The notes under the pieces are model-generated. The model saw nothing but the letters and a program-made list of their open reading frames with translations. It had not been told where the DNA came from and did not search any database. A stretch of 40,440 nt of DNA from a virus: IMG/VR virus record IMGVR_UViG_3300042516_005598, positions 1 through 40,440 of that record, one strand, 5' to 3'. Both the position numbers and the translations under genes were made by a program. The first letter of the stretch is position 1; each line of letters begins with the position of its first letter. This document shows positions 1,525-28,273 of this stretch, one piece after another.

Positions 1525-3398
1525 TGGCACATATTAAACCGGAACAGTTACGATCAGGATTTTATGAAATAACGGGTTCGTTATATGGTACTTCATCCTT
1601 TGCATATACAGCATCTCATGTAGATAATGCTGTTGTAACTGCTTCTGCGGTTAATGATACTATTACTTTTACTAAAGGAAACGGAACAACATTCCCAATA
1701 ACTTTAACTAGTATTGCTACAGCATCTTATGCCTTAAACTCATTATCGAGTTCATATGCTTTAACAGCATCTTATGCTTCAAATGTTCCTTTAACAGCAT
1801 CATATGCTTTAAATGCATTATCGAGTTCATATGCGATTACTTCATCATATGCTGCAACTGCTTCGTTTATTAGTACATTATATAGTAGTAACTATACACA
1901 ATCATTCACAAATCAATCTACTTGGGTAGTAATTCATAATTTAGATACTCGTTATGTTATTGTACAAGTATATGATACAGCATTTGACGAAGTAATTCCA
2001 CAAAATATTGATTTAACGGATGATAATACTGTTACTATTACATTCCCTACTTTAGAAAGTGGAACTGCAGTTGTAACTGTAGGTGGTGCTCTGCAAAATT
2101 CAGGAGCTGTATCTTCTTCATATGCATTTAATGCTACAAGCGCATCATACGCTTTAACAGCTTCTTATTTTAGTGGAAGTATTACAAATGCTATAAATGC
2201 TGTAAGTGCATCATATGCTTTAACTGCTTCTTACGTTTTAAATGCTATAAGTGCATCGTATGCTTTAACAGCTTCTTACGTTCAAAATGCACAAACTGCT
2301 TCCTACGTTTTAAATGCTGTAAGTGCATCATATGCTTTAACAGCTTCATATTTTAGTGGAAGTATTACAAATGCTGTAAGTGCATCATATGCTTTAACTG
2401 CTTCATATGTAACTCTATCCCAAACCGCTTCATATGTTGACCCAACATTTATCTCAGCATCAGCTGCTGCTGCTGGATTTGGTTCAGGTGGCGGGTCTGT
2501 TACTGTTCCTGGTAATGATACTGAAATTTTATTTAATAGTGCAAGTGCATTAGGAGCATCATCTAACTTCAACTATATTTATTCTTCTTCTAGCTTACAA
2601 CAAGGATCTAATACTATTGCTTCAGGACAATGGTCACATGCTGAAGGTAATATTACAAGAGCTCGAGGAAGTTATTCACATGCTGAAGGTTATGATGCAT
2701 TTTCTTCTGGATCATACTCACATGCTGAAGGATTTTCCACAACCTCTTCAGGTCTTTTTTCTCATGCTGAAGGTCGCCAAACCCTTACGTTTGGAGCTTC
2801 ATCTCATGCCGAGGGTGCTTTTACTACAGCACAAGGTAATTTTTCTCATGCTGAAGGGAATGGTACTAATTCTCAAGGGCTATATTCTCATGCTGAAGGT
2901 CAAAATACTATTGCTAGTGGGTTTGCATCTCATGCCGAAGGTTTAAATTCATTATCATCGGGTCCACATTCTCACGCTGAAGGTTCAAATACTATTGTTA
3001 GTGGTCAATATTCACATGCTGAAGGTGAGGGAACTAATGTTGCTGGAAACGCTTCACATGCTGAAGGATACGGTACTATAGTAGTAATTGGTGCTAATGG
3101 TTCTCATGTTGAAGGACTTTATACTATAGCATCAGGCTCATACCAGCATGTACAAGGCCAATATAATACTCATGGAGATACTACATCTTTAATGATTGTA
3201 GGTAATGGTACTGCTGATAATACCCGTTCAGATGCATTTAGAGTAAGAATGTCTGGTTCTATAGTTCTTCCTACTACTCAATCATCTGCTCCTTCATGGA
3301 CAGGTACAGATGGAGAAATTGTTCCTGCAACTGTAGGAGGACAATATTTCCTTTATATGTGGATGAATGGTGCCTGGAGATCAGGGTCATTTGTATAA
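1524..3398 (+). CDS. Tail fibre / adhesin with long SHAEG repeat head
   Basis: A 624-aa fibre paralogous to the one at 8-1342. Residues about 66-107 and 196-305 are TASYALNAxSASYALTASY repeats. Between them, about 116-192, sits a compact domain (WVVIHNLDTRYVIVQVYD...VTVGG) of a kind seen in other phage fibres. After a Gly hinge (GFGSGGGS, ~317-330), residues about 359-529 hold eleven SHAEG repeats and one SHVEG at a mostly regular 14-residue period, then QHVQG and the same ~85-residue tip module as the upstream fibre. The repeats predict a trimeric left-handed beta-roll. It starts on the overlap TAATG with the 47-aa gene. Receptor binding is inferred. Confidence 0.78.
   Translation: MAHIKPEQLRSGFYEITGSLYGTSSFAYTASHVDNAVVTASAVNDTITFTKGNGTTFPITLTSIATASYALNSLSSSYALTASYASNVPLTASYALNALSSSYAITSSYAATASFISTLYSSNYTQSFTNQSTWVVIHNLDTRYVIVQVYDTAFDEVIPQNIDLTDDNTVTITFPTLESGTAVVTVGGALQNSGAVSSSYAFNATSASYALTASYFSGSITNAINAVSASYALTASYVLNAISASYALTASYVQNAQTASYVLNAVSASYALTASYFSGSITNAVSASYALTASYVTLSQTASYVDPTFISASAAAAGFGSGGGSVTVPGNDTEILFNSASALGASSNFNYIYSSSSLQQGSNTIASGQWSHAEGNITRARGSYSHAEGYDAFSSGSYSHAEGFSTTSSGLFSHAEGRQTLTFGASSHAEGAFTTAQGNFSHAEGNGTNSQGLYSHAEGQNTIASGFASHAEGLNSLSSGPHSHAEGSNTIVSGQYSHAEGEGTNVAGNASHAEGYGTIVVIGANGSHVEGLYTIASGSYQHVQGQYNTHGDTTSLMIVGNGTADNTRSDAFRVRMSGSIVLPTTQSSAPSWTGTDGEIVPATVGGQYFLYMWMNGAWRSGSFV
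2627..3147 (+). repeat. Tandem 14-residue SHAEG repeats
   Basis: Tandem 42-bp repeats (TCTCATGCTGAAGGT core) inside the fibre at 1524; a shorter set lies in the fibre at 8. They encode the beta-roll head. Confidence 0.8.
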
Positions 3399-3705: not shown

Positions 3706-4698
3706 ATGGCAACTTGGAAAAAAGTCATCGTCTCGGGTAGTGCAGCAAATTTATCTGCTTTACAAGTAGACAACTTAACTTCCGGTCAAGTAGTAATTGG
3801 TGGTGGTACAGGTAACTTATCTTCAACAGCAATTAACGGTACTGGAAATATTTTAGCAACTACTGGTGCTACTGGAGTATCTATTTCAGGTTCATTTAGT
3901 GGTTCATTTTTTGGTAATGGTGCTGGCTTAACTGGTGTTTCTGCAGCATTTCCTACTACTCAAAAGACTGATTTAGCTAATACCGATCAATTTTATATTA
4001 ATGATGGTGCTAACAAATATGTTACATATGGTGACTTATTACAAGATTTAGCAGGTACTAATTTATCAGTTGAAGGTACAGATAGTTTAACATTATCAAC
4101 AACTATTACAGGTATTACCTCTATTTCTTCAACTAGCTTTACAGGTTCGTTACTAGGTAATGTTAATGGTACTGCAAGTTGGGCTGTAAATGCACAGAAT
4201 GTTTCTAGCATTAATAATAATATCACCAATAATACAAACAATTATGTATTAACTGCAACTGGTGGTGGTTCAATTAATGGTGAGGCTAATTTACAATTTG
4301 ACGGCACTACATTAACAGTAACTGGAAACGAAGTAATTACCGGCAATTTAGTTGTACAAGGTACTGCCTCATTCCAAAATACAACTAACTTAGAAGTTGC
4401 TGATAGATTTATTCTTTTAGCTTCTGGTTCAAATGCTGCCGGTGATGGTGGTTTAGTAATTCAACAAGCTACACAAGATGTAGGTGAATTATTTGGATAT
4501 GAAAACTCAATTAATCGTTGGGGGTTCACTTCAAGTTATGCAGCTAATGGATCTACATTTAATGCTGCAGCATATGTAACAACAACAGAAGTTTCATCAA
4601 CAGCACCTTCAGTAGCTCCAATTTATGGTGGCGCTTCAAACGGATACGGTAACATACATGTTAACACAAATACAGGCGATATTTATATTTATTCTTAA
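3706..4698 (+). CDS. Tail fibre protein (WKKVIVSGS N-terminus)
   Basis: A 330-aa fibre. It begins MATWKKVIVSGSAANLSALQ, almost the same as the start of the 1730-aa fibre at 5243 (MPNWKKVIVSGSDAALNSL), which suggests a common docking end. The middle has ITGS/SFSGSFFGNGAGLTGV segments and a Asn-rich stretch (about 165-180). The C-terminal ~100 residues (LEVADRFILLASGSNAAGDGG to GDIYIYS) form a distinct domain with an RWGFTSS motif, of a type found in other environmental phage fibres. Structural role inferred; no enzymatic motif seen. Confidence 0.72.
   Translation: MATWKKVIVSGSAANLSALQVDNLTSGQVVIGGGTGNLSSTAINGTGNILATTGATGVSISGSFSGSFFGNGAGLTGVSAAFPTTQKTDLANTDQFYINDGANKYVTYGDLLQDLAGTNLSVEGTDSLTLSTTITGITSISSTSFTGSLLGNVNGTASWAVNAQNVSSINNNITNNTNNYVLTATGGGSINGEANLQFDGTTLTVTGNEVITGNLVVQGTASFQNTTNLEVADRFILLASGSNAAGDGGLVIQQATQDVGELFGYENSINRWGFTSSYAANGSTFNAAAYVTTTEVSSTAPSVAPIYGGASNGYGNIHVNTNTGDIYIYS
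4679..4688 (+). promoter_or_regulatory. Late motif variant ATATTTATAT inside a gene end
   Basis: Near copy lying in the last codons (GDIYIYS) of the preceding fibre gene, 29 nt before the ATG at 4718. It may be coincidental in AT-rich coding sequence. Confidence 0.25.
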
Positions 4699-4717
4699 CA
4701 AATTAAAAAAATTAGTT

Positions 4718-4915
4718 ATGTCTTTTACTGCAGGTCACTTTGTTGGTGATAATAAAAAAATTGAACAACCTCTATCTTCCAATCAATTAACTGATAAGGA
4801 GATAGAGGTTTTGCTTTCTATGATTAAACGTACAACTTTCATTGGAGAGGATATTGAACCTTTGTACAATTTGGTTGTAAAACTACAAAACCAACACACA
4901 GAACAAACAAAATAG
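4718..4915 (+). CDS. Small helical protein, paralogue of next gene (65 aa)
   Basis: A 65-aa protein. The start MSFTAGHF is chosen over an upstream in-frame ATG at 4625 because that one would overlap the fibre gene by 74 nt, and because 4718 has the TTAGTTATG context seen at other starts. Residues from LTDKEIEVLLSMIKR to YNLVVKLQNQ look like a helical hairpin. This stretch aligns without gaps to the next protein, with shared E, L, G, D and KL positions. No known function; a small conserved phage protein that may assist fibre assembly, given that it sits between fibre genes. Confidence 0.7.
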   Translation: MSFTAGHFVGDNKKIEQPLSSNQLTDKEIEVLLSMIKRTTFIGEDIEPLYNLVVKLQNQHTEQTK

Positions 4916-4921
4916 TAAGTT

Positions 4922-5161
4922 ATGAATATATTTTCAGTTGACTTTTCCCATGCGGAATTAAATTTTCTACGTCAAGCACTTGAAACTGTTCCTATTCAAG
5001 GAAGGGATGCTAAATTTTGTGCCTCTATTCAAATTAAACTAGAGCAAGAACTAGAGGAAATTACACAAATGATCAAAGCTGAAGAAGAATCTAGAATGCT
5101 TGGTCTTCAACAAATCATCCAACACGAGGAGACAAAAACAACAACCAGGAAAAAACAATAA
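4922..5161 (+). CDS. Small helical protein, paralogue of previous gene (79 aa)
   Basis: A 79-aa protein. FSHAELNFLRQALETVPIQG to IQIKLEQELEEI matches the neighbouring 65-aa protein position by position, followed by a charged Glu-rich helix (IKAEEESRML) and a basic tail (TRKKQ). The start follows TAAGTT. Function unknown. It is co-encoded with its paralogue in the gap between two fibres that share the WKKVIVSGS N-terminus, which suggests a linked role in fibre folding or attachment (inference only). Confidence 0.7.
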   Translation: MNIFSVDFSHAELNFLRQALETVPIQGRDAKFCASIQIKLEQELEEITQMIKAEEESRMLGLQQIIQHEETKTTTRKKQ

Positions 5162-5162
5162 T

Positions 5163-5172
5163 ATATTTATTA
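5163..5172 (+). promoter_or_regulatory. Late motif variant ATATTTATTA
   Basis: Variant of the late 10-mer at the head of the long (80-nt) leader before the 1730-aa fibre. It overlaps the 5' arm of the leader's predicted stem. Confidence 0.35.
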
Positions 5173-5233
5173 CCGTATTATAGGCCCAAAAGGGAAGTGG
5201 ACACAGCATATTCTGTGTAACCAACCGTAATAA
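5167..5233 (+). ncRNA. Predicted structured leader RNA (three-way junction)
   Basis: By eye this leader folds as follows: closing stem TTATTAC (5167-5173) with GTAATAA (5227-5233); inside it a small hairpin CCC-AAAA-GGG; then a stem TGG-ACACAG / CTGTGT-(AA)-CCA with loop CATATT. It ends 9 nt before the fibre start at 5243, so it could affect translation. No known family was recognised. Confidence 0.4.
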
Positions 5234-5242
5234 ACATATTAA

Positions 5243-8200
5243 ATGCCAAACTGGAAAAAAGTCATAGTATCGGGCTCTGATGCCGCCCTGAATTCTTTAC
5301 TAGTAACTAGCGGAGTTACAATAACAGGATCTCTAAATGTAACTGGTTCTACAACCCAAATAGGAAATAATACATTGCTAGGGAACACAACCCTATCAGG
5401 TAGCATCATAATTTCAGGATCCGAAAATCCAAGTACACCTTCTGTTCAAATTTATGGTGATACACAACATACTGGGGTTGTTAGATTTAACCCTATTAGT
5501 AGGAATATCGACCCTTCAATATCTGCATCTTATATTTATGTTTCTGGTTCCACAAATGACTTATATTTTAGCCAAAACGGATCAGGATATGCTAATACAA
5601 CTCGTTTACGTTGGTTAGAAGGTAATCTATATACAGGATTATTACATGGTGGTTTAATTACAACACAATCCTCTACTGTTTACCAAATATCAAGTGGTAG
5701 TGGTATTATAGTAGACTTAAATGCATCATTAGGTGATGACCCATACCCAGTAATACAATTTTTAGAATGGGGAAATTTATCTGCAAGTATCGCTCCATTA
5801 ACTGCTTCTTATCAACAAGCATTTGTTGGTATTGATTCAACTAATAATATTTTTGCTCAAGGTACACCATTTAGTAATGGTCAATTTGATACTGTAATCA
5901 ATATAGGTAGTGTATTCTTTCAAAACCAATCTACAATTAATGGTGTTAAAACACAACCTTCTGTAGCATATGGATTTGAACAACAACAAAATGTATTTAA
6001 TAGAGCATTTGGACCTTTAAAACTTTCAGGATATACTTTATCACCAAGTGGTTCTTCAACGGGTAGTTTAATAGTTGGAAGTGGTACAGCTTATGCTCCG
6101 GGATCTAACTATACAGTAGATCCAAATGAACCATACTATAGTGTTGATAATGGAACCAATATTTCTAAAATATTTAGATATTACCAATCAGGATCTAGTT
6201 GGGTTTATTTATCAAATGCTGGTGCAGGGTATACTACAATAGATCCAACCAAATACTCAAATAATGGTACTTTAACTTCTGTTGGAGCCGGTAATTGGTC
6301 AATACAAAGAGTATTTTGGTTCCCTAATTCAGTAACAAAAGCAATAGTAGTTTACTATGGTAATGCTATTTACCCAACAGAGGCAGAAGCTTTAGCAAAT
6401 ATTAGTTTTGAGTCATTTGTTGAAGCACCAAATACTGCAGCCAATGCAATTTATCTTGGTGCTATTATTATAAATCAAAATGGTGTATTTACTAATGCTA
6501 GTACATTTACAATATATCCTGGCGGATTATTCAGACAAGTAGGAGGATCAGGTGGTGGTGGTTCCATAGTAACCCAAACATTAGCAGGTTTATCCGATGT
6601 GTCTATTTCAGGACCAACAAATGGTCAAGCATTAGTATACAACAATACTTCTGCTAAATGGGAAAACTCATCAACATTAACTGCAAATTTAATAGGTAAT
6701 GCAAGTACAGCAACAACTGCATCTTATGCATTAACAGCATCATATACTCCTTCAATTGCAGGTACAGACAATTATATACCTAGATTTAATGGTTCAAGTG
6801 CACTAGAAAATAGTGTAATGTATGATGATGGTACTAATATTGGTATTGGTACTACTAGCCCTTCATATAAAATAGATGTTGCAGGATCCGGTAGACTTAC
6901 ATTAGCAGGATATGCAGGTTATGAATATCATAACACTGCAGGTACTTGGGAAGTATATATAGGTACCGAAAACAATACAGGTAACGCTAGATATAATTCA
7001 CGTCAAGGTGATCATACGTGGTACTATAATAGTTCAGCCACAATGAAATTAACCTCTGCAGGTTATTTAGGTGTTGGCACTACAACACCAACATCAAACC
7101 TCCAAGTCCAATCAAACAATCTATCAGCTCCAGCATTTGCTGTTTCTAAAAGTTTCTCCGGTGGTGGTGATGGTACTGCTGTTATGCATGCTTTTGGATA
7201 TGATTCCGGAATTGCAAATACAGGTATTCAAGTTGGTGTAAAAGGAACCGGAGGATTCTCAGCTACAGATGCATATCCATTTAGAGTATTCAATCAAGGT
7301 ACAGCAACATTTAGCATGTTATCTAATGGAAATGCCCACTTCAGTGGAAGTGTAGGTATTGGTACTACTAGTCCATCATACAAACTAGATGTTGTAGGTG
7401 AAGGAAGATTCGGTACAGGTGCAAAAGCTATAATCGGAACTGATGGAACATATGCAGGATATGGTGTTGTAGGCTTTGGTGGAACTACAGATGGATATAA
7501 TAGAATATTTGGACATCAAAGCACTTCAGATGGTTTATACATAGCGGCTGCAACCGGTAGAGGAATTGAATTTTGGGTAAATGGCGCAACTACAGTAGCC
7601 ATGAGAATTAACCCAGCAGGTAACGTAGGTATAGGTACTACTAGTCCAACTTCTAAACTTCATGTTTGGAACGATAAAATAGAAGTAACAGGATTCCCAG
7701 CAGCTGGAAGTCCATTTACATTCTTAGAGTCAAATTATAATGACCAATCTGCTGTTGCAATTAAGTTCTTAAACTATAATCCATCAAACGGCTATGATTC
7801 AGATTTAGGTATTCAATTAATGAATACAGGTGGATCTATGTTTGATGCAATGATCATTAAAGGATCTACAGGCAACGTTGGTATTGGTACTAATAGTCCA
7901 TCTTATAAATTAGATGTAAGTGGAAGTATTCACGCCCAAGAATCATCTACCGTTGGTACACTTATACTAGGAAATACAGTTGATAATTATATATCATACT
8001 ACAATTCAGATGTATATTTTAAAGCAAAAGGTAGTCATTATTTTGAAGGTAATGGATTTTATAAAGGTGTTTGGAATAGTAATGGTAATCTAGGTATCGG
8101 AACTTCATCCCCTCCAGGTAACTCAACAAACCGAGCTGTAGAAATTGCGGGTGCCGATAGTGCAAATCTAGTTGTAACCCAACCAGGTTATGCATCAGCA

Positions 8201-21040: not shown

Positions 21041-22783
21041 ATGGCAGAAACAATTGTATCACCTGGTGTATTAGCAATAGAGAACGATCAATCATTTGTA
21101 ACTCAACAGCCTGTACAAGCAGGAGCCGCTATAATAGGCCCAACAGTAAAAGGTAAAGTAGGAATCCCTACTCTAGTAACTTCATACAGTGATTATTTAA
21201 ATAAGTTTGGTGCTACTTTCCTTAGTGGAAGTAACACCTATACTTATTTTACTTCAATTGCTGCTTACAACTATTTCAATAATGGTGGTCCTTCACTTTT
21301 AGTAACTCGTGTAGTAACAGGTTCATTTACTTCTGCTACTTCATCATTTATTTCATCTTCTGCACATGGTGCAGGTGCTCCTTATAATACTAGTCCATTT
21401 GAATTGGCCACTATTTCTAAAGGAGAAATTATGAATAGTGCTGGCCCTACAGGTTCAGTAGGTACTTTATTAAGTGGCTCATCAGATAATTTTAGATGGC
21501 AAATTACAAATGCTAATACTAGCTCAGGTACATTTACTTTATTGCTTCGTCAAGGTAATGATAGCACAGTATTTCCTTCAATTGTAGAAACTTGGGGTCC
21601 ATTATCACTTGACCCATATTCATCAAACTACATTGAAAAGGTAATTGGTAATCAAGTTGAAAATATAGCTGTTGATGCTGGTGAATATTATATCCAAACA
21701 TCTGGAAGCTACGTCAATAATTCAGCTTATATTTACGTTAAATCTGTTAGTCAACCTACTCCAAATTATTTTGATAATGTAGGAAACCCAAAACCACAAT
21801 ATACAGGTTCAATTCCCAACAATGCAAGTGGTTCATTTGGTGCAGCTACCGGAAAATTATTTCATGGTGGTAACAACAAATACTACGAACAAATCACTTC
21901 AGGAGATAATATTCAAGGAATACCTGCAAGTGCATATACTGAATCTATTTCTTTATTAGCAAATAAAGATGCATTTAACTATAATCTTTTAATTGCCCCT
22001 GGATTAATGTCTGATATAGCAGGCGGAGCACCAGGAGCAATCACTTCTATGATTTCAGTTGCCCAAAATAGAGGCGACATGATGGTAGTATTTGATTCCT
22101 CAAAATATAATACCCCAATTAGTACCGTACTTACTAATACTTCAGGATATGATACTTCATATGCTGCTACTTATTGGCCTTGGGTTAAAACAATAGATCC
22201 AAGTACTGCAAACCAAGTTTGGGTACCTGTTTCTACTTTAATTCCTGGAGTGTATGCGTTTAATGATAATGTTGCTGCTCCTTGGTTTGCACCTGCAGGT
22301 ATAAATAGAGGTATTATTACAGTAGCAACTCAAGCTGAACGTGTATTGACTCAAGGAAACAGAGATACATTATACCAATCAAATATTAACCCAATTTCTA
22401 CAGTTCCTAATTCAGGTATAGTAGTATTTGGACAAAAAACACTCCAAAAAAGACAAAGCTCTTTAGATCGTATTAATGTACGTCGTTTATTGATTGAACT
22501 TAAAGGATATATTACTCAAGTAGCTGATACGTTTGTGTTTGAACAAAATAATGCTGTTACAAGAAATAATTTCTTAGCTATTATCAATCCATACTTATCA
22601 TCTGTTCAACAACAACAAGGTTTAACTTCATTTAGAGTGATAATGGATGAATCAAATAACCCACCTTCAGTTGTAGATAATAACCAAATGGTAGGCCAAA
22701 TTTATTTACAACCTACTAGAACAGCTGAATTTATTGTGCTTGATTTCAATATATTACCTACTGGTGCAACATTTCCTGCTTAA
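21041..22783 (+). CDS. Tail sheath protein, copy 1 (gp18-like)
   Basis: A 580-aa contractile tail sheath subunit. The N-terminus SPGVLAIENDQSFVTQQPVQ plus AAIIGPTVKG, the YSDYLNKFGATF segment, YTYFTSIAAYNYFNNGG and LLVTRVVTG, and the C-terminus GQIYLQPTRTAEFIVLDFN, ending LPTGATFPA, are typical of the T4 gp18 family. Central landmarks are YAATYWPWVKTIDPST and WFAPAGINRGII, then LYQSNINPISTVPNSGIVVFGQKTL and RINVRRLLIELKG. T4 gp18 is 659 aa, so this is somewhat shorter. The sheath surrounds the tube and contracts on infection. A second sheath gene follows directly. Confidence 0.93.
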   Translation: MAETIVSPGVLAIENDQSFVTQQPVQAGAAIIGPTVKGKVGIPTLVTSYSDYLNKFGATFLSGSNTYTYFTSIAAYNYFNNGGPSLLVTRVVTGSFTSATSSFISSSAHGAGAPYNTSPFELATISKGEIMNSAGPTGSVGTLLSGSSDNFRWQITNANTSSGTFTLLLRQGNDSTVFPSIVETWGPLSLDPYSSNYIEKVIGNQVENIAVDAGEYYIQTSGSYVNNSAYIYVKSVSQPTPNYFDNVGNPKPQYTGSIPNNASGSFGAATGKLFHGGNNKYYEQITSGDNIQGIPASAYTESISLLANKDAFNYNLLIAPGLMSDIAGGAPGAITSMISVAQNRGDMMVVFDSSKYNTPISTVLTNTSGYDTSYAATYWPWVKTIDPSTANQVWVPVSTLIPGVYAFNDNVAAPWFAPAGINRGIITVATQAERVLTQGNRDTLYQSNINPISTVPNSGIVVFGQKTLQKRQSSLDRINVRRLLIELKGYITQVADTFVFEQNNAVTRNNFLAIINPYLSSVQQQQGLTSFRVIMDESNNPPSVVDNNQMVGQIYLQPTRTAEFIVLDFNILPTGATFPA

Positions 22784-22829: not shown

Positions 22830-24539
22830 ATGGCAAATTTCACAACTTCTCCTGGAGTAGCAATTAGCGAAATAGACAACACTTTCTTAACTGGACAACC
22901 AGTACAAGCAGGTGCTGCTATTATAGGTCCTACAGTTAAAGGTCCTGTTGAAAAACCAACACTTGTAACAACTTATTCAGATTTCGTAACGATATTTGGA
23001 GATACTTTTATCAGTGGTGGTAATTCTTATTCTTACTTAACTTCAATTGCTGCTTACAATTATTTTAATTATGGAGGAACTTCATTATTAGTTGCTCGTG
23101 TAGTAACTGGTTCTTACACATCCGCAATTAGTACTACAATTCCTAACTACATATCCTCTAGTTCATCTTCATTCTCTTTAGAAACTATTTCTGAAGGAAC
23201 TATTATGAACAACTCAGGATCTATAGTTTCAGGCTCATTGATTTCAGGATCAACTGACAACATTCGTTGGGAAATTACAAATTCAAATACTGGATCAGGT
23301 ACATTTAATGTATTAATTAGACGTGGTAATGATACAACTAATAATAAAGTTGTATTAGAGGCATGGAACAATTTGACATTAGATCCAAATTCAAGTCGTT
23401 ATATTTCTAAAGTAATAGGTGATCAAAAATTAAATTATAGTTCTGCTAATAATCAAATGGAATTATCTGGAAGTTATCCAAATAATTCAAAATATGTTCG
23501 TGTAAAAGCAGTAACAAACCCAACACCAAACTACTTTGATTCAAATGGTGTTGCAGTAAATGCATACACAGCTTCTATCCCATTAAATGGTAGTGGTTCA
23601 GCAGGTGGTTCATTTTATAATGCTACAGGTACTGCAAGTGGATCTATTAAACTATACGATGAAATTGGTGATAATACACAAGGATTAGTTGGTGCTAACT
23701 ATAATAACATGATTACTTTACTTGGTAATCCTGAAGCATATCAATTCAATGTATTATTTACTCCTGGTTTATTAAATGATAAACATACAGCTCAAGTTAC
23801 AAATATTATTACTAACACAATTGCAAGAGGTGATAGTATGTATGTAATGGATTTAGGAGTATATGGTAGTTCCCTTACAGAAGCAGTAACACAAGCTCAA
23901 ACTCGTGATACTTCATATGCTGCAACATATTGGCCTTGGGTTCGTATCATTGACCCATCAACAGGAAAACATGTTTGGGTTCCAGCTTCAACAGTAATCC
24001 CAGGTGTATATGCATTTAACGATAAAGTAGCCGCTCCTTGGTTTGCACCAGCAGGTATAAACCGCGGTGGATTAAGCACAGTTCTTCAAGCTGAATTGAA
24101 ATTGACGCAAGGTAACAGAGATACTTTATATGCGAATAATATCAACCCAATTGCAACACTACCCAAACAAGGTGTTGTAGTGTATGGTCAGAAAACATTA
24201 CAAAAAGCTCAATCTGCTCTTGATCGTGTAAACGTACGTCGTTTAATGATTGAATTGAAATCATACATTCGTCAAATTGCAGATACAGTAGTATTTGAAC
24301 AAAACACAATTGCAACTAGAAATTCATTTATCGCAAGAGTTACTCCATTCTTAGAAGGAATCCAACAAAAACAAGGATTATATGCTTATAAAGTTGTTAT
24401 GGATGATACAAATAATGGCCCAGCAGTAATTGATCAAAACCAATTAGTAGGTCAAATTTATATCCAACCAACACGCACAGCTGAATTTATTTCCCTAGAT
24501 TTCATCTTAATGCCTACAGGAGCTGAATTCCCAGGATAA
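22830..24539 (+). CDS. Tail sheath protein, copy 2 (gp18-like)
   Basis: A 569-aa paralogue of the preceding protein, colinear along its length. Matching landmarks are SPGVAISEIDNTFLTGQPVQ, YLTSIAAYNYFNYGG, YAATYWPWVRIIDPSTGKH, WFAPAGINRGGL, LYANNINPIATLP, RVNVRRLMIELKSYIRQIAD and GQIYIQPTRTAEFISLDFI, ending LMPTGAEFPG. The core and C-terminal domain are well conserved, while residues ~95-280 (the exposed outer domain in gp18) diverge. Both copies look intact, so either both build the sheath or they are used in different parts or variants of it. Confidence 0.93.
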   Translation: MANFTTSPGVAISEIDNTFLTGQPVQAGAAIIGPTVKGPVEKPTLVTTYSDFVTIFGDTFISGGNSYSYLTSIAAYNYFNYGGTSLLVARVVTGSYTSAISTTIPNYISSSSSSFSLETISEGTIMNNSGSIVSGSLISGSTDNIRWEITNSNTGSGTFNVLIRRGNDTTNNKVVLEAWNNLTLDPNSSRYISKVIGDQKLNYSSANNQMELSGSYPNNSKYVRVKAVTNPTPNYFDSNGVAVNAYTASIPLNGSGSAGGSFYNATGTASGSIKLYDEIGDNTQGLVGANYNNMITLLGNPEAYQFNVLFTPGLLNDKHTAQVTNIITNTIARGDSMYVMDLGVYGSSLTEAVTQAQTRDTSYAATYWPWVRIIDPSTGKHVWVPASTVIPGVYAFNDKVAAPWFAPAGINRGGLSTVLQAELKLTQGNRDTLYANNINPIATLPKQGVVVYGQKTLQKAQSALDRVNVRRLMIELKSYIRQIADTVVFEQNTIATRNSFIARVTPFLEGIQQKQGLYAYKVVMDDTNNGPAVIDQNQLVGQIYIQPTRTAEFISLDFILMPTGAEFPG

Positions 24540-24585: not shown

Positions 24586-25074
24586 ATGGCAATTTTAAAT
24601 CCAAACGAAATATTTTTCACAGCGTTTGAACCTAAACAAACCAACCGTTTTATCCTTTATATGGATGGTGTTCCATCATATTTGGTAAAAGGAGTAAGCG
24701 CAGTATCTTTATCACAAACAGCTGTTGCTCTTAATCACATCAACGTTCAACGTTATGTAAAAGGAAAAACAATTTGGAATACAATTTCATTCACATTATA
24801 TGATGCAATTACACCTTCTGGTGCTCAAGCAGTAATGGAATGGGTACGTTTAGGTCACGAATCAGTAACAGGCCGTGATGGTTATTCAGATTTTTATAAG
24901 AAAGACATTACGTTTAATGTTATCGGACCTGTAGGTGATATCGTTTCTGAATGGATTATTAAAGGAGCCGTTATTACAAGTGCTAACTTCGGTGATTATA
25001 GCTGGGATGATGACGGAACTATAGTAGGACTTACTGTTGAAGTACAACCTGACTACTGTATCTTGAACTACTAA
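24586..25074 (+). CDS. Tail tube protein (gp19-like)
   Basis: A 162-aa tail tube monomer, the usual size for T4 gp19 (163 aa). It contains FEPKQTNRFILYMDGVPSYL, WNTISFTLYDAITPSGAQAV, MEWVRLGHESVTGRDGYSDF and KKDITFNVIGPVGDIVSEW, and ends VQPDYCILNY, all in the gp19 order. It forms the inner tube through which DNA passes. It follows the sheath genes and is closed by a strong terminator, consistent with high-level late expression. Confidence 0.92.
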   Translation: MAILNPNEIFFTAFEPKQTNRFILYMDGVPSYLVKGVSAVSLSQTAVALNHINVQRYVKGKTIWNTISFTLYDAITPSGAQAVMEWVRLGHESVTGRDGYSDFYKKDITFNVIGPVGDIVSEWIIKGAVITSANFGDYSWDDDGTIVGLTVEVQPDYCILNY

Positions 25075-25098
25075 GAACAAAACAACAAAATATATAAG

Positions 25099-25131
25099 AG
25101 CTCCAAAGAAATTTGGAGCTTTTATTTTCTT
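25099..25131 (+). terminator. Rho-independent terminator
   Basis: Perfect 9-bp stem AGCTCCAAA / TTTGGAGCT with GAAA loop (25108-25111), then TTTATTTTCTT. It separates the sheath/tube genes from the secreted protein gene. Confidence 0.88.
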
Positions 25132-25147
25132 TCAATATATTAGATTT

Positions 25148-27112
25148 ATGAAAAAACTATTTGTATTTCTTTTATTGGCTTTCGTAGGACACAGTCAATA
25201 TTGCCCTTCATTAGGACCTGATCAAATATTACCTTGTGGTGTAGGATCAACTACACTAACAGCAAACTTAAGCCAATGTGGTACAGGCACAAACCCTAAT
25301 CAAACAACAAATTACAGTACCTCTCCTATAGCATATTCAAACCAAACTAATACAGGAACTCAGTTATTTATGACTGATGATTCTCAGCAAGGTCCATTTA
25401 ATATAGGGTTTACTTTTTGTTTCTTTGGACAAACTTACACTCAATTTTATGTAGGTTCTAATGGTTGGATTTCTTTTTCACCTGGTCAACCTACTACATT
25501 TACAACCCAAACTATTCCTACTGCTAATCCTTTAGTACCTAGAAATTGTATTATGGGCCCTTGGCAAGATTGGCACCCTGGTATTGGAGGACAAATTAGA
25601 TATCAAACAAGTGGAGTTGCACCTTGTAGAAAATTAACAGTAAGTTGGACAAATATGCCTATGTTTAGTTGTACAGGCAATCAAGGTACATTTCATATTG
25701 TAATATATGAATCTTCCAATTATATTGATAGTTATATTCAAAACAAACCAGCTTGTTTACAATGGCAAGGCGGAACAGCAACACAAGGAATCCATAATGC
25801 TGCTGGTACTATAGGAATTGCTGTACCTGGTAGAAATTCAACTGCTTGGACTGCAACAAACGATGCATATAGATGGACACCAACAGGTCCTGTAGTTGTA
25901 CCTACTTTAACATGGTATCAAGTAGGTAATCCTGTTGCAATTGGTACCGGACCAACAATTAACGTTACTCCTAATGGTCCAACTCAATATACTTGCCAAT
26001 TAACCTATCCAACTTGTAATGCTGGTTGGTCTGTTTGTAATGGAGGAGCTAGTTTAGGACCTGATACAGTATTAGTTGTGCCTGGTCCTCCAATTCCATC
26101 AACAGGTCCAATCAATGGTATTGATACTATTTGCTATTTAAGCTCATATGAAATGTATGATGTACCCGCAGTAGCTAATTATAATTATCTTTGGAGCAGT
26201 GTTGCCCCTATTACTTCAGGACAAGGAACTAATATTATTACAGTAGACTTTAGTTCATTCCCTGGAGGATTTATTCCTGGTGCTATTCAAGTAACCCCAG
26301 AAGCAAATGGATGTACTGGGTTACCTGTAACTATTGATTTATTTATTTTAAATATTTTACCTACAATTGATCCTATAGGACCATTTTGTGAATATGACGG
26401 ATCTGTTACTTTAAACGCGATTCCTGTTGGGGGGATTTTAAGTGGTGTAGGTGTTGTTGGTAATGATTTTTATCCTTCAAACGCAGTAGGAACTAATATT
26501 ATCAATTATGAATATACTTTAAGTGGATGTTTATTTGATACAACTACTACTGTAATAGTATATCCTCAACCAACACTTGATTCAATTACCCCATATAATC
26601 CATTCTATGAACTTTGTGAAGGTGATTCAATTGTAACCACATTTACAGCTTTATATAACCTACCAGGATACAATGAATGGACATTTATGAGTTCTACTTA
26701 CCAACAAGATGATATTTCTATTTCATTTGAAACCCCAGGAATGTTCCCTTTATCAGTAGTTCATTATTCAAATGGATGTGCTTCCCCAATTCAAGAAACA
26801 GTAATTACAGTAGCACGTTGCCCTGAATTATTATTTTATGTTCCAAATTCATTTACACCTGATGGAAATGAACATAACAATACTTTTCAACCAGTATTTA
26901 CAAATGGGTTTGATCCATATGATTTTCATTTAGTAATATTTAATCGTTGGGGAGAATTAATATATGAATCATATAATTCTGCAGAATATTGGGATGGAAC
27001 ATATAATAATACTCCTTGTCCTGCAGGATCATACACATATAAAATTCAATTTGGTTTTAAAGAAACAGATGATGACCAAGTTATAAGTGGAAATGTTAAT
27101 CTTATTCGATAG
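25148..27112 (+). CDS. Secreted protein with type IX secretion (type B) sorting domain
   Basis: A 654-aa exported protein. MKKLFVFLLLAFVGHSQ is a signal peptide (positive start, hydrophobic core, cleavage near 16-17). Residues ~60-230 contain FNIGFTFCFFGQTYTQFYVG, CIMGPWQDWHPGIGGQIRYQ and RKLTVSW, a module found in Bacteroidota surface proteins. Ig/PKD-like segments follow (~240-555), rich in Cys. Residues ~563-654 are a gliding-motility-associated C-terminal domain (CHU_C, TIGR04131): YVPNSFTPDGNEHNNTF, IFNRWGELIYES, YWDGTYNNTPCPAGSYTYKI, ending GNVNLIR. This domain directs secretion and surface attachment through the host type IX system. It lies between tube and tail-assembly genes in its own unit; composition is like its neighbours. 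Role inferred: modifying the host surface, blocking rival phages, or a virion adhesin. Confidence 0.85.
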   Translation: MKKLFVFLLLAFVGHSQYCPSLGPDQILPCGVGSTTLTANLSQCGTGTNPNQTTNYSTSPIAYSNQTNTGTQLFMTDDSQQGPFNIGFTFCFFGQTYTQFYVGSNGWISFSPGQPTTFTTQTIPTANPLVPRNCIMGPWQDWHPGIGGQIRYQTSGVAPCRKLTVSWTNMPMFSCTGNQGTFHIVIYESSNYIDSYIQNKPACLQWQGGTATQGIHNAAGTIGIAVPGRNSTAWTATNDAYRWTPTGPVVVPTLTWYQVGNPVAIGTGPTINVTPNGPTQYTCQLTYPTCNAGWSVCNGGASLGPDTVLVVPGPPIPSTGPINGIDTICYLSSYEMYDVPAVANYNYLWSSVAPITSGQGTNIITVDFSSFPGGFIPGAIQVTPEANGCTGLPVTIDLFILNILPTIDPIGPFCEYDGSVTLNAIPVGGILSGVGVVGNDFYPSNAVGTNIINYEYTLSGCLFDTTTTVIVYPQPTLDSITPYNPFYELCEGDSIVTTFTALYNLPGYNEWTFMSSTYQQDDISISFETPGMFPLSVVHYSNGCASPIQETVITVARCPELLFYVPNSFTPDGNEHNNTFQPVFTNGFDPYDFHLVIFNRWGELIYESYNSAEYWDGTYNNTPCPAGSYTYKIQFGFKETDDDQVISGNVNLIR

Positions 27113-27116
27113 GCCA

Positions 27117-27126
27117 ATATTTATAA
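27117..27126 (+). promoter_or_regulatory. Late motif ATATTTATAA
   Basis: Exact copy only 4 nt before the ATG at 27131. Confidence 0.45.
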
Positions 27127-27130
27127 CCAT

Positions 27131-27502
27131 ATGAAACTAGATAGTTTACGTACATTAGTTAAAGAGGAGCTTAGTAAGCGACTAAATGAGGAATACCAAG
27201 ACAAGTTTAAAATGGTAGGTATGCTTATTACCAACATTAAGAAACGCCCTCAAAAAGAAATCTTCTCAGATATTCGTTCCATTCCCGGTGTTACAGTAGC
27301 ATCTGTAAAAGAACCTATGGAATATAGTGAGCAAGATACAGAAAAATTCCAATCTATAATGACTGTTAAAGTAGATGGCCATCCATGGATTGCAAAAGGT
27401 GGATTTGACCGTACAAAAATGGAAGATATCCGCAAAGCTATATTGAAAGTAGAAGGAGTATTATCATTCAACGTGAATTCTGATAATATTTCTGCTCTTT
27501 AA
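27131..27502 (+). CDS. Unknown tail-region protein (123 aa)
   Basis: A 123-aa protein. An N-terminal charged helix (LRTLVKEELSKRLNEEYQDK) is followed by MVGMLITNIKKRPQKEIFSD, IRSIPGVTVASVKEP, SIMTVKVDGHPW and MEDIRKAILKVEGVLSFNV. The strand-helix-strand-strand-helix-strand order suggests a ferredoxin-like (ACT-like) fold. No function is known to me. It heads the tail assembly genes, behind a late motif. Confidence 0.65.
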   Translation: MKLDSLRTLVKEELSKRLNEEYQDKFKMVGMLITNIKKRPQKEIFSDIRSIPGVTVASVKEPMEYSEQDTEKFQSIMTVKVDGHPWIAKGGFDRTKMEDIRKAILKVEGVLSFNVNSDNISAL

Positions 27503-27544: not shown

Positions 27545-28273
27545 ATGAGTGAATTTAAATTACCAACTGAAATAGTTGAATTACCTTCTAAAGGTTTACT
27601 TTATCCTGAAGGATCTGAATTAGCATCCGGTAAAATAGAAATGAAATATATGACTGCTAAGGAAGAAGATATCCTTACAAACCAATCATATATTAAAAAC
27701 GGTACAGTACTAGACAAACTTCTTAAATCATTGATTGTATCGAAAATTAATTTTGATGACCTATTAATTGGTGATAAAAATGCAATTATGGTTGCAGCCC
27801 GTATTTTAGGATATGGTTCAGAATATTCTTTTGAATATAATGGTGAACCTCAAGTTGTTGATTTGTCAACTTTAGAAAATAAATTACTTAAAGAAGAATT
27901 ATTTACATCTCGTGTAAATGAATTTACTTTTACTCTCCCAAAATCAAAAAACACAATTACATTTAAACTTTTAACTCATAAAGACGAACAAGATATTTCT
28001 CGTGAATTAGAAGGCTTAAAGAAAATCAATAAAGATTCATCCCCAGAACTTACTACTCGCTTAAAATACATGATTCTCTCAGTTGAAGGTAGTCGTGATA
28101 AAAAAGATATTAGAAATTTTGTGGATAATTATTTACTTGCTCAAGATTCAAGAGCACTCCGTGAATATGTTAAAGAAATCCAACCAGACGTTGACCTAAC
28201 ATTTTTTCCCAGTAATGGGGATGATAGAGTCAGTATCCCAATTGGGGTTAGCTTTTTTTGGCCTGACCTATGA
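27545..28273 (+). CDS. Tail assembly chaperone / hub protein (gp26-like)
   Basis: A 242-aa protein of the T4 gp26 baseplate/tail-assembly family. The family pattern is visible: IVELPSKGLLYPEGSELASG, IEMKYMTAKEEDILTNQSYI, LDKLLKSLIVSKINFDDLLI, GDKNAIMVAARILGYGSEY. A helical middle (HKDEQDISRELEGLKKINK) and a short C-terminus IPIGVSFFWPDL follow; the Cys pair present in some family members is absent. It ends over a run of seven T (28253-28259) and overlaps the next frame by 59 nt, directly before the tape measure: the arrangement of frameshifting tail chaperone pairs (gpG/gpGT) in other tailed phages. Confidence 0.82.
   Translation: MSEFKLPTEIVELPSKGLLYPEGSELASGKIEMKYMTAKEEDILTNQSYIKNGTVLDKLLKSLIVSKINFDDLLIGDKNAIMVAARILGYGSEYSFEYNGEPQVVDLSTLENKLLKEELFTSRVNEFTFTLPKSKNTITFKLLTHKDEQDISRELEGLKKINKDSSPELTTRLKYMILSVEGSRDKKDIRNFVDNYLLAQDSRALREYVKEIQPDVDLTFFPSNGDDRVSIPIGVSFFWPDL

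Follow-up and report, generated by a model that had tools for sequence, protein, structure and literature searches.

Lom and Bor of phage lambda and Cor of phi80 are morons by which a phage modifies the surface of its host. The gene described here resembles them in being an accessory gene placed between conserved structural genes and behind a terminator, with a product that likely acts on the host cell; it differs from them in its predicted use of type IX secretion and in a base composition that is not foreign. PfsE of Pf is also a surface-altering phage moron (PMC8764522), and the comparison holds for it as well.

Type IX secretion has been described as exporting folded proteins (PMC9251779), and gliding and type IX proteins have been linked to phage adsorption (PMC13288928). 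Type B cargos of this system are known or predicted adhesins (PMC12618676) and need PorP/SprF-like proteins, which appear to anchor them (PMC9143113). The latter are specific shuttles at the translocon and are scarce in F. johnsoniae, where overproduced type B cargo was secreted only with a co-expressed shuttle; orphan type B cargos also exist and share one shuttle (PMC12618676). The type B adhesins of Bacteroidota (SprB-type; TIGR04131/PF13585) share with the protein described here a signal peptide followed by Q, PKD/SprB-type modules and a type B sorting domain, and the N-terminal domains of the nearest bacterial relatives are 60-65% identical to the phage N-terminal domain. In contrast to these adhesins, however, the phage protein is shorter (about 650-740 residues, against about 1040 in the nearest), and its gene lies in a tail block, belongs to a clade of its own and is accompanied by no phage shuttle gene that could be found.

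Phage-encoded type IX cargo in itself has already been reported. Cryophage cargo genes comprise three of type A that are variable and enzyme-like (PMC7468147), BACON/type IX proteins have been described in crAss-like phages (PMC6949934), and uncultured-phage entries in BFVD already bear the name 'gliding motility-associated, C-terminal domain'. The Cryophage and crAss-like genes are comparable to the present one in that they encode type IX sorting domains and are presumed to rely on the host system. By contrast with Cryophage, the gene described here represents one conserved type B adhesin family, found in several phage lineages and at a fixed site for which empty-site relatives exist. As far as the literature searched shows, the conserved type B adhesin family, the insertion site with its empty-site relatives, the single clade, the transfer between phages and a three-part version of the protein are new.

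The window, by which is meant the whole stretch of viral DNA analysed (40,440 nucleotides of IMG/VR record IMGVR_UViG_3300042516_005598), contains an open reading frame at 25148-27112 on the plus strand, where all window features given below also lie. On the basis of profile matches, relatives and alignment, the encoded protein of 654 residues was assigned as an adhesin-like type IX cargo of type B. It consists of a signal peptide, a cysteine-rich N-terminal domain of ∼300 residues, beta-rich PKD/Ig-like domains and a sorting domain, in that order. The signal peptide (MKKLFVFLLLAFVGHS, residues 1-16, positions 25148-25195) was judged to be of the Sec type from its sequence and conservation and is followed by Q17 at the predicted mature start, a residue that was invariant in an alignment of 29 rows. 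A Q in this position follows the Bacteroidetes Q-rule (PMC5837995), which has already been noted for some Porphyromonas phage proteins (PMC10367356). Residues 17-313 (25196-26086) form an all-beta domain that matched neither a Pfam family nor a PDB fold, and residues 318-390 (26099-26317) matched the PKD-like family PF19408 with 28.8 bits (cut-off 25). The type B sorting domain occupies residues 565-654 (26840-27109). Cysteine accounts for 19 residues (2.9%), compared with an average of 0.29% in the other proteins of the window, and such a content is expected of an extracytoplasmic protein with disulfides.

The first-pass annotation, made from the sequence alone, had read this gene as a type IX cargo with a signal peptide and a complete type B C-terminal domain, and had proposed a search with the CHU_C (PF13585) and TIGR04131 profiles. 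The open reading frame, its coordinates and the motifs YVPNSFTPDG, YWDGTYNN and final NLIR all held on re-examination, and both profiles matched above their curated cut-offs: PF13585 with an E value of 2e-13 and 50.7 bits (cut-off 27), and TIGR04131 with an E value of 7e-13 and 48.5 bits (cut-off 35), the latter extending to residue 654. The same CHU_C search returned zero matches in 14 control genomes.

The gene is embedded in a tail cluster, preceded by two tail sheath genes and then by the tail tube gene (24586-25074; phrog_4542, E value of 2.1e-19). The tandem sheath genes (21041-22783 and 22830-24539) are also present in most close relatives, and a single copy is found in phage immuto. 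A terminator-like hairpin, consistent with an intrinsic terminator, follows the tube gene at 25094-25125, and gene 25148 sits behind it. Downstream lies a gene for a tail-terminator-like protein of 123 residues (27131-27502), assigned from weak matches with E values of 0.026 and 0.065, and then a gp26/baseplate-hub-like gene (27545-28273; phrog_150, 4.7e-9; PF12322, 2.3e-4). The placement in the tail cluster proposed at the outset was therefore correct, but the 123-residue gene intervenes before the gp26-like gene that had been taken as the right-hand neighbour. Of the two boundaries suggested there, the terminator was confirmed; the late motif at 27117 belongs to gene 27131.

This motif, ATATTTATAA (27117-27126), occurs 11 times in the window against 1.1 copies expected, always on the plus strand, and 10 of the 11 copies stand 14-31 nt before the start of an open reading frame (positions 3398, 3679, 10438, 20283, 21014, 22808, 24555, 27117, 28569 and 30856). 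It is likely, from this distribution, to be a late promoter of the phage. The copy at 27117 is 14 nt ahead of gene 27131 and was rejected as evidence bearing on gene 25148. No late element was recognisable before gene 25148 itself (position weight matrix score of -3.4, p = 0.77), and a TATATT-like stretch precedes the ATG in most relatives.

Relatives with an empty site were found by scanning with the tail tube. In one of these, L208, the tube and the next gene are 90 and 97% identical to those of the window and are separated by 78 nt, in which the same terminator is followed directly by the AT-rich element and the ATG, with no adhesin gene. The adhesin gene of the window lies between the terminator and the AT-rich element that adjoin in L208, such that the late-promoter-like motif of the next gene marks the right edge of the insertion. 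The same hairpin is present in a second empty-site relative, L216, and the 123-residue gene remains adjacent to the tube in such relatives; insertion between genes that neighbor each other in relatives was evident from L208, L216 and others. Thus, close relatives with an empty site reveal a clean insertion behind the terminator of the tail tube. Other extra open reading frames occupy the same junction in L222, L230, L238 and L265. Among cultured phages, Flavobacterium phage immuto, which has a Flavobacterium host, possesses the closest tail sheath (52%); it lacks the adhesin gene in the interval from tube to hub and is devoid of CHU_C domains throughout. No named cultured phage carrying the adhesin gene was found, and a Megablast search of the first 24 kb of the window against phages gave zero matches. 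The anatomy of the insertion is best read as that of a moron-like accessory gene. Among the usual marks of a moron, a terminator lies beside the gene, on its upstream side; the base composition, as had been stated in the first-pass annotation, is like that of the neighbours (GC content of 0.347), and codon usage is similar as well.

The gene was also sought in other viruses. Scanning viral contigs yielded 137 confirmed relatives, 80 of which were kept, and the same tail context was observed in 49 of these 80, originating from many metagenomes; the first-pass annotation had proposed to look for the gene beside gp18/gp19 genes of other phages. The signal peptide with its Q and the sorting motifs N.FTP, NRWG, W[DN]G and a final K/R were present in all 59 distinct complete copies. 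Median dN/dS values among these copies, obtained by pairwise counting in which the pairs are not independent, were lowest in the N-terminal domain (0.15), compared with 0.32 in the middle and 0.27 in the sorting domain. Selection on the phage adhesin gene is purifying, and the N-terminal domain is the most conserved part of the protein.

In a scan of genome contigs, 91 relatives were found and 80 kept, nearly all of which are in Bacteroidota metagenome-assembled genomes; most of the bacterial relatives that were examined are secreted proteins that follow this plan at greater length. A tree of 140 N-terminal domains groups the 61 phage copies in a single clade (SH-aLRT of 99) nested among bacterial adhesins. 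The simplest reading is that the gene was probably captured once from a Bacteroidota surface-adhesin family, although the phage set was gathered by similarity to the window, so that distant captures may be missed and a single capture possibly overstated. The gene has a different setting in other phages. In the 169-kb contig L034, which encodes a terminase, sheath and capsid of its own, it is near genes for a metallophosphoesterase and a thymidylate synthase; in L061, L067 and L068 it is beside an endolysin gene; further contexts occur elsewhere, and it is also present in the 635-kb megaphage LR745206. The N-terminal domains of L055 and L068 are 78% identical and their terminases 28% identical, and the context label changes eight times on the phage tree, with at least three changes forced. 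Both observations show that the gene has moved between distant phages. Judged by these sequence comparisons, many viruses of Bacteroidota carry an apparently host-derived adhesin gene, often between two tail genes. As a separate observation, the large terminase match in two contigs (G015:C1:62475-64094 and G016:C1:49241-50860) crosses in-frame stops (1 TGA, 1 TAG and 4 TAA); an open frame of 594 residues is reported for this region despite the stops, and an intervening sequence is possible.

A structural model of the N-terminal domain was of high confidence (pLDDT of 93.5) and almost entirely beta. Comparison with the PDB gave no sequence match and no structure match at an E value of 0.001 or below; the best hit, a GhpA fragment, had an E value of 0.017 and was rejected as not significant. 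In BFVD, three matches were obtained at this threshold, of which two are to uncharacterised proteins of Caudovirales and the third is to an unnamed entry. The full-length model (pLDDT of 83.5, pTM of 0.46) is beta-rich throughout behind the signal peptide.

Shuttle genes were searched for in phage and host. PorP/SprF (PF11751) was found in none of 13 viral contigs and three phage records, and in 5-17 copies in each of five bacterial genomes; none was found in 16 further contigs, in a search that had no positive control of its own, and BLAST with ten PorP-like open reading frames detected none in the vicinity of the bacterial relatives. Given that no phage shuttle was found, the phage protein would be an orphan cargo in need of a host shuttle. 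The signal peptide and Q, the complete sorting domain, the cysteine content of 2.9% and the bacterial type IX adhesin relatives together support the assignment as type IX cargo. The proposal of an adhesin placed on infected cells finds good support in the sequence as regards cargo status, and secretion and display are what we infer from these features. Given that the product is tagged for the host type IX system, the infected cell probably carries a phage-made surface protein.

We consider it somewhat better than an even chance that this is a moron-like gene whose product is taken by a host shuttle through the type IX system, is displayed on the infected cell and changes phage adsorption. The product of gene 25148 would be exported by Sec and cleaved before Q17, after which it would cross the outer membrane through the type IX system of the host, served by a PorP/SprF-type shuttle that the host also provides. 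It would then stay attached to the outside of the infected cell, presumably with the N-terminal domain outermost, and the altered surface may reduce adsorption of other virions, or of the phage's own progeny when these encounter debris. Such an effect could arise from masking or, alternatively, if the phage protein competes for scarce shuttles with type B adhesins of the host, SprB among them; given the link of type IX proteins to adsorption, either would hinder superinfection or adsorption to debris. Our guess, from context and literature, is that the benefit most likely lies in blocking superinfection or re-adsorption. PADLOC returned no match of gene 25148 to an anti-phage defence family. 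That large Bacteroidota phages keep genes with products marked for the host type IX system implies that infected cells may carry a phage-made surface, and superinfection, cell contact and debris adsorption in Bacteroidota become testable with one gene.

The main rival is that the displayed protein serves adhesion and not the exclusion of phages, such that infected cells adhere to one another, to particles or to new hosts and thereby aid spread. It is in keeping with the bacterial relatives, which are long type IX surface proteins of the adhesin plan, with the SprB-repeat and PKD modules and with the adhesin function known or predicted for type B cargos (PMC12618676). A brief lytic infection, unless slow, would however leave scant time to profit; we regard adhesion as possible but doubtful. 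A late-made orphan cargo might instead occupy SprA or the shuttles and so halt gliding and the delivery of surface adhesins, with the N-terminal domain unimportant. The orphan status of the protein and the scarcity of shuttles (PMC12618676) fit such jamming, but a mere plug would have no need of an N-terminal domain, which is the part under the strongest conservation, and we consider it improbable.

The first-pass annotation had also offered, as an alternative, a virion part shaped like a host surface protein. Such a part might be a tail fibre or decoration assembled from domains of host adhesins, in which the sorting domain is a mere Ig-like fold. The gene is within a tail block, phages often reuse Ig-like domains, and Foldseek with the full-length model returned many Ig-like phage structural proteins. 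The signal peptide and complete sorting domain are nonetheless conserved; the protein is cysteine-rich, unlike the surrounding virion proteins, and matched no PHROG, tail families included. The gene is moreover missing from close relatives with intact tail genes and from immuto, and is carried far from tail genes by other phages. The export signals, cysteines, absence in close relatives and varied neighborhoods thus disfavor a virion component, which we hold to be very improbable. Finally, the nearest non-phage proteins are Bacteroidota adhesins, as would be the case had host DNA entered the contig or an assembly chimera arisen, an outcome that had been named as fatal to the proposal. The junction recurs in the 49 viral contigs, which rules out such an origin for practical purposes, and the phage-only clade, the purifying selection and the phage-like composition likewise leave it a negligible chance.

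A split version of the protein was encountered at the junction of tube and terminator in L213, where three consecutive open reading frames for secreted proteins (3865-5630) are present. A scan with the middle one identified 103 contigs with a relative, and such cassettes were observed in L213 and L308-L387, often at the same tail junction; 20 of the 65 cassettes recognised have the tail tube immediately before them. The order is A (mostly ∼197 residues), B (∼187 residues, PKD-like) and C (∼188 residues, Ig-like with a type B sorting domain), and the reading frames of B and C share 1 nt in 49 of 57 cassettes. By a sequence rule, a signal peptide with Q was assigned to every one of the 53 B and 46 C proteins and to 51 of 53 A proteins, and the sorting domain is found only on C, with A and B lacking it. 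The cassette is thus comparable to the window gene in its position behind the tube and in its homologous B and C parts, but differs in comprising three separate secreted polypeptides.

Subunits A and B end in I-x-H-N/D, with N in 52 and D in one of 53 cases for each, an invariance that is partly by construction since this ending was a criterion in gathering the cassettes; nearly every match of an unselected listing also has it. Beside the fused gene the ending was not seen, save in one unrelated-looking open reading frame of 103 residues. Residues 326-481 of the window protein correspond in alignment to B and residues 486-654 to C, and the tail of B takes the place of the interdomain segment QPTLDSITPYN (residues 474-484, positions 26567-26599), which contains a strand at residues 477-481 in the model, with C beginning just behind it. 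The tail of A and B matches linkers of the fused protein. A tree built from the Ig-plus-sorting region places one change (support of 95) between the fused and the split forms. Among 296 Bacteroidota genomes, the B domain occurred only in long frames (about 600 residues or more), and the A domain in one genome, in a chain whose end appeared by eye to be type A sorting-like.

We tentatively suggest, at rather less than even likelihood, that the window gene encodes a fused 'tip-adaptor-anchor' surface fibre, of which A would be the tip, B the adaptor and C the anchor, with A and B riding along with C. In such an arrangement, the I-x-H-N/D strand conserved at the C-terminus of A and of B would dock, in the periplasm and in a donor-strand-like manner, into the subunit that follows, and the docked subunits could then hitch-hike with C through the type IX translocon. 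If true, this would amount to a phage-made surface complex and a new type IX route for proteins without a sorting domain. The three-protein version raises the question of whether proteins can ride the type IX translocon on a partner.

Further type IX cargo genes were noted in phages. A second type B cargo gene, much larger, is present in two phages: at 556-4599 of L039 it encodes 1347 residues with 10 PKD domains, and at G011:C1:11351-11608 it lies in an open frame of 1555 residues. The uncultured megaphages LR745206 and LR756502 (L083-L091; 635 and 642 kb) encode four and three CHU_C domains, respectively, together with type A sorting domains. In two large phages (L301, 632-3621; L302, 758-3792), a secreted protein of 639-646 residues with a type A sorting domain is followed by a gene for a secreted protein of ∼240 residues that is putatively CsgG-like. 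In immuto, gp015 (NC_055915, 12691-13422; L300, 3192-3923) combines a cohesin domain with a type A type IX sorting domain, lies two genes behind a C-type lectin gene and provides a cultured, testable example of phage type IX cargo.
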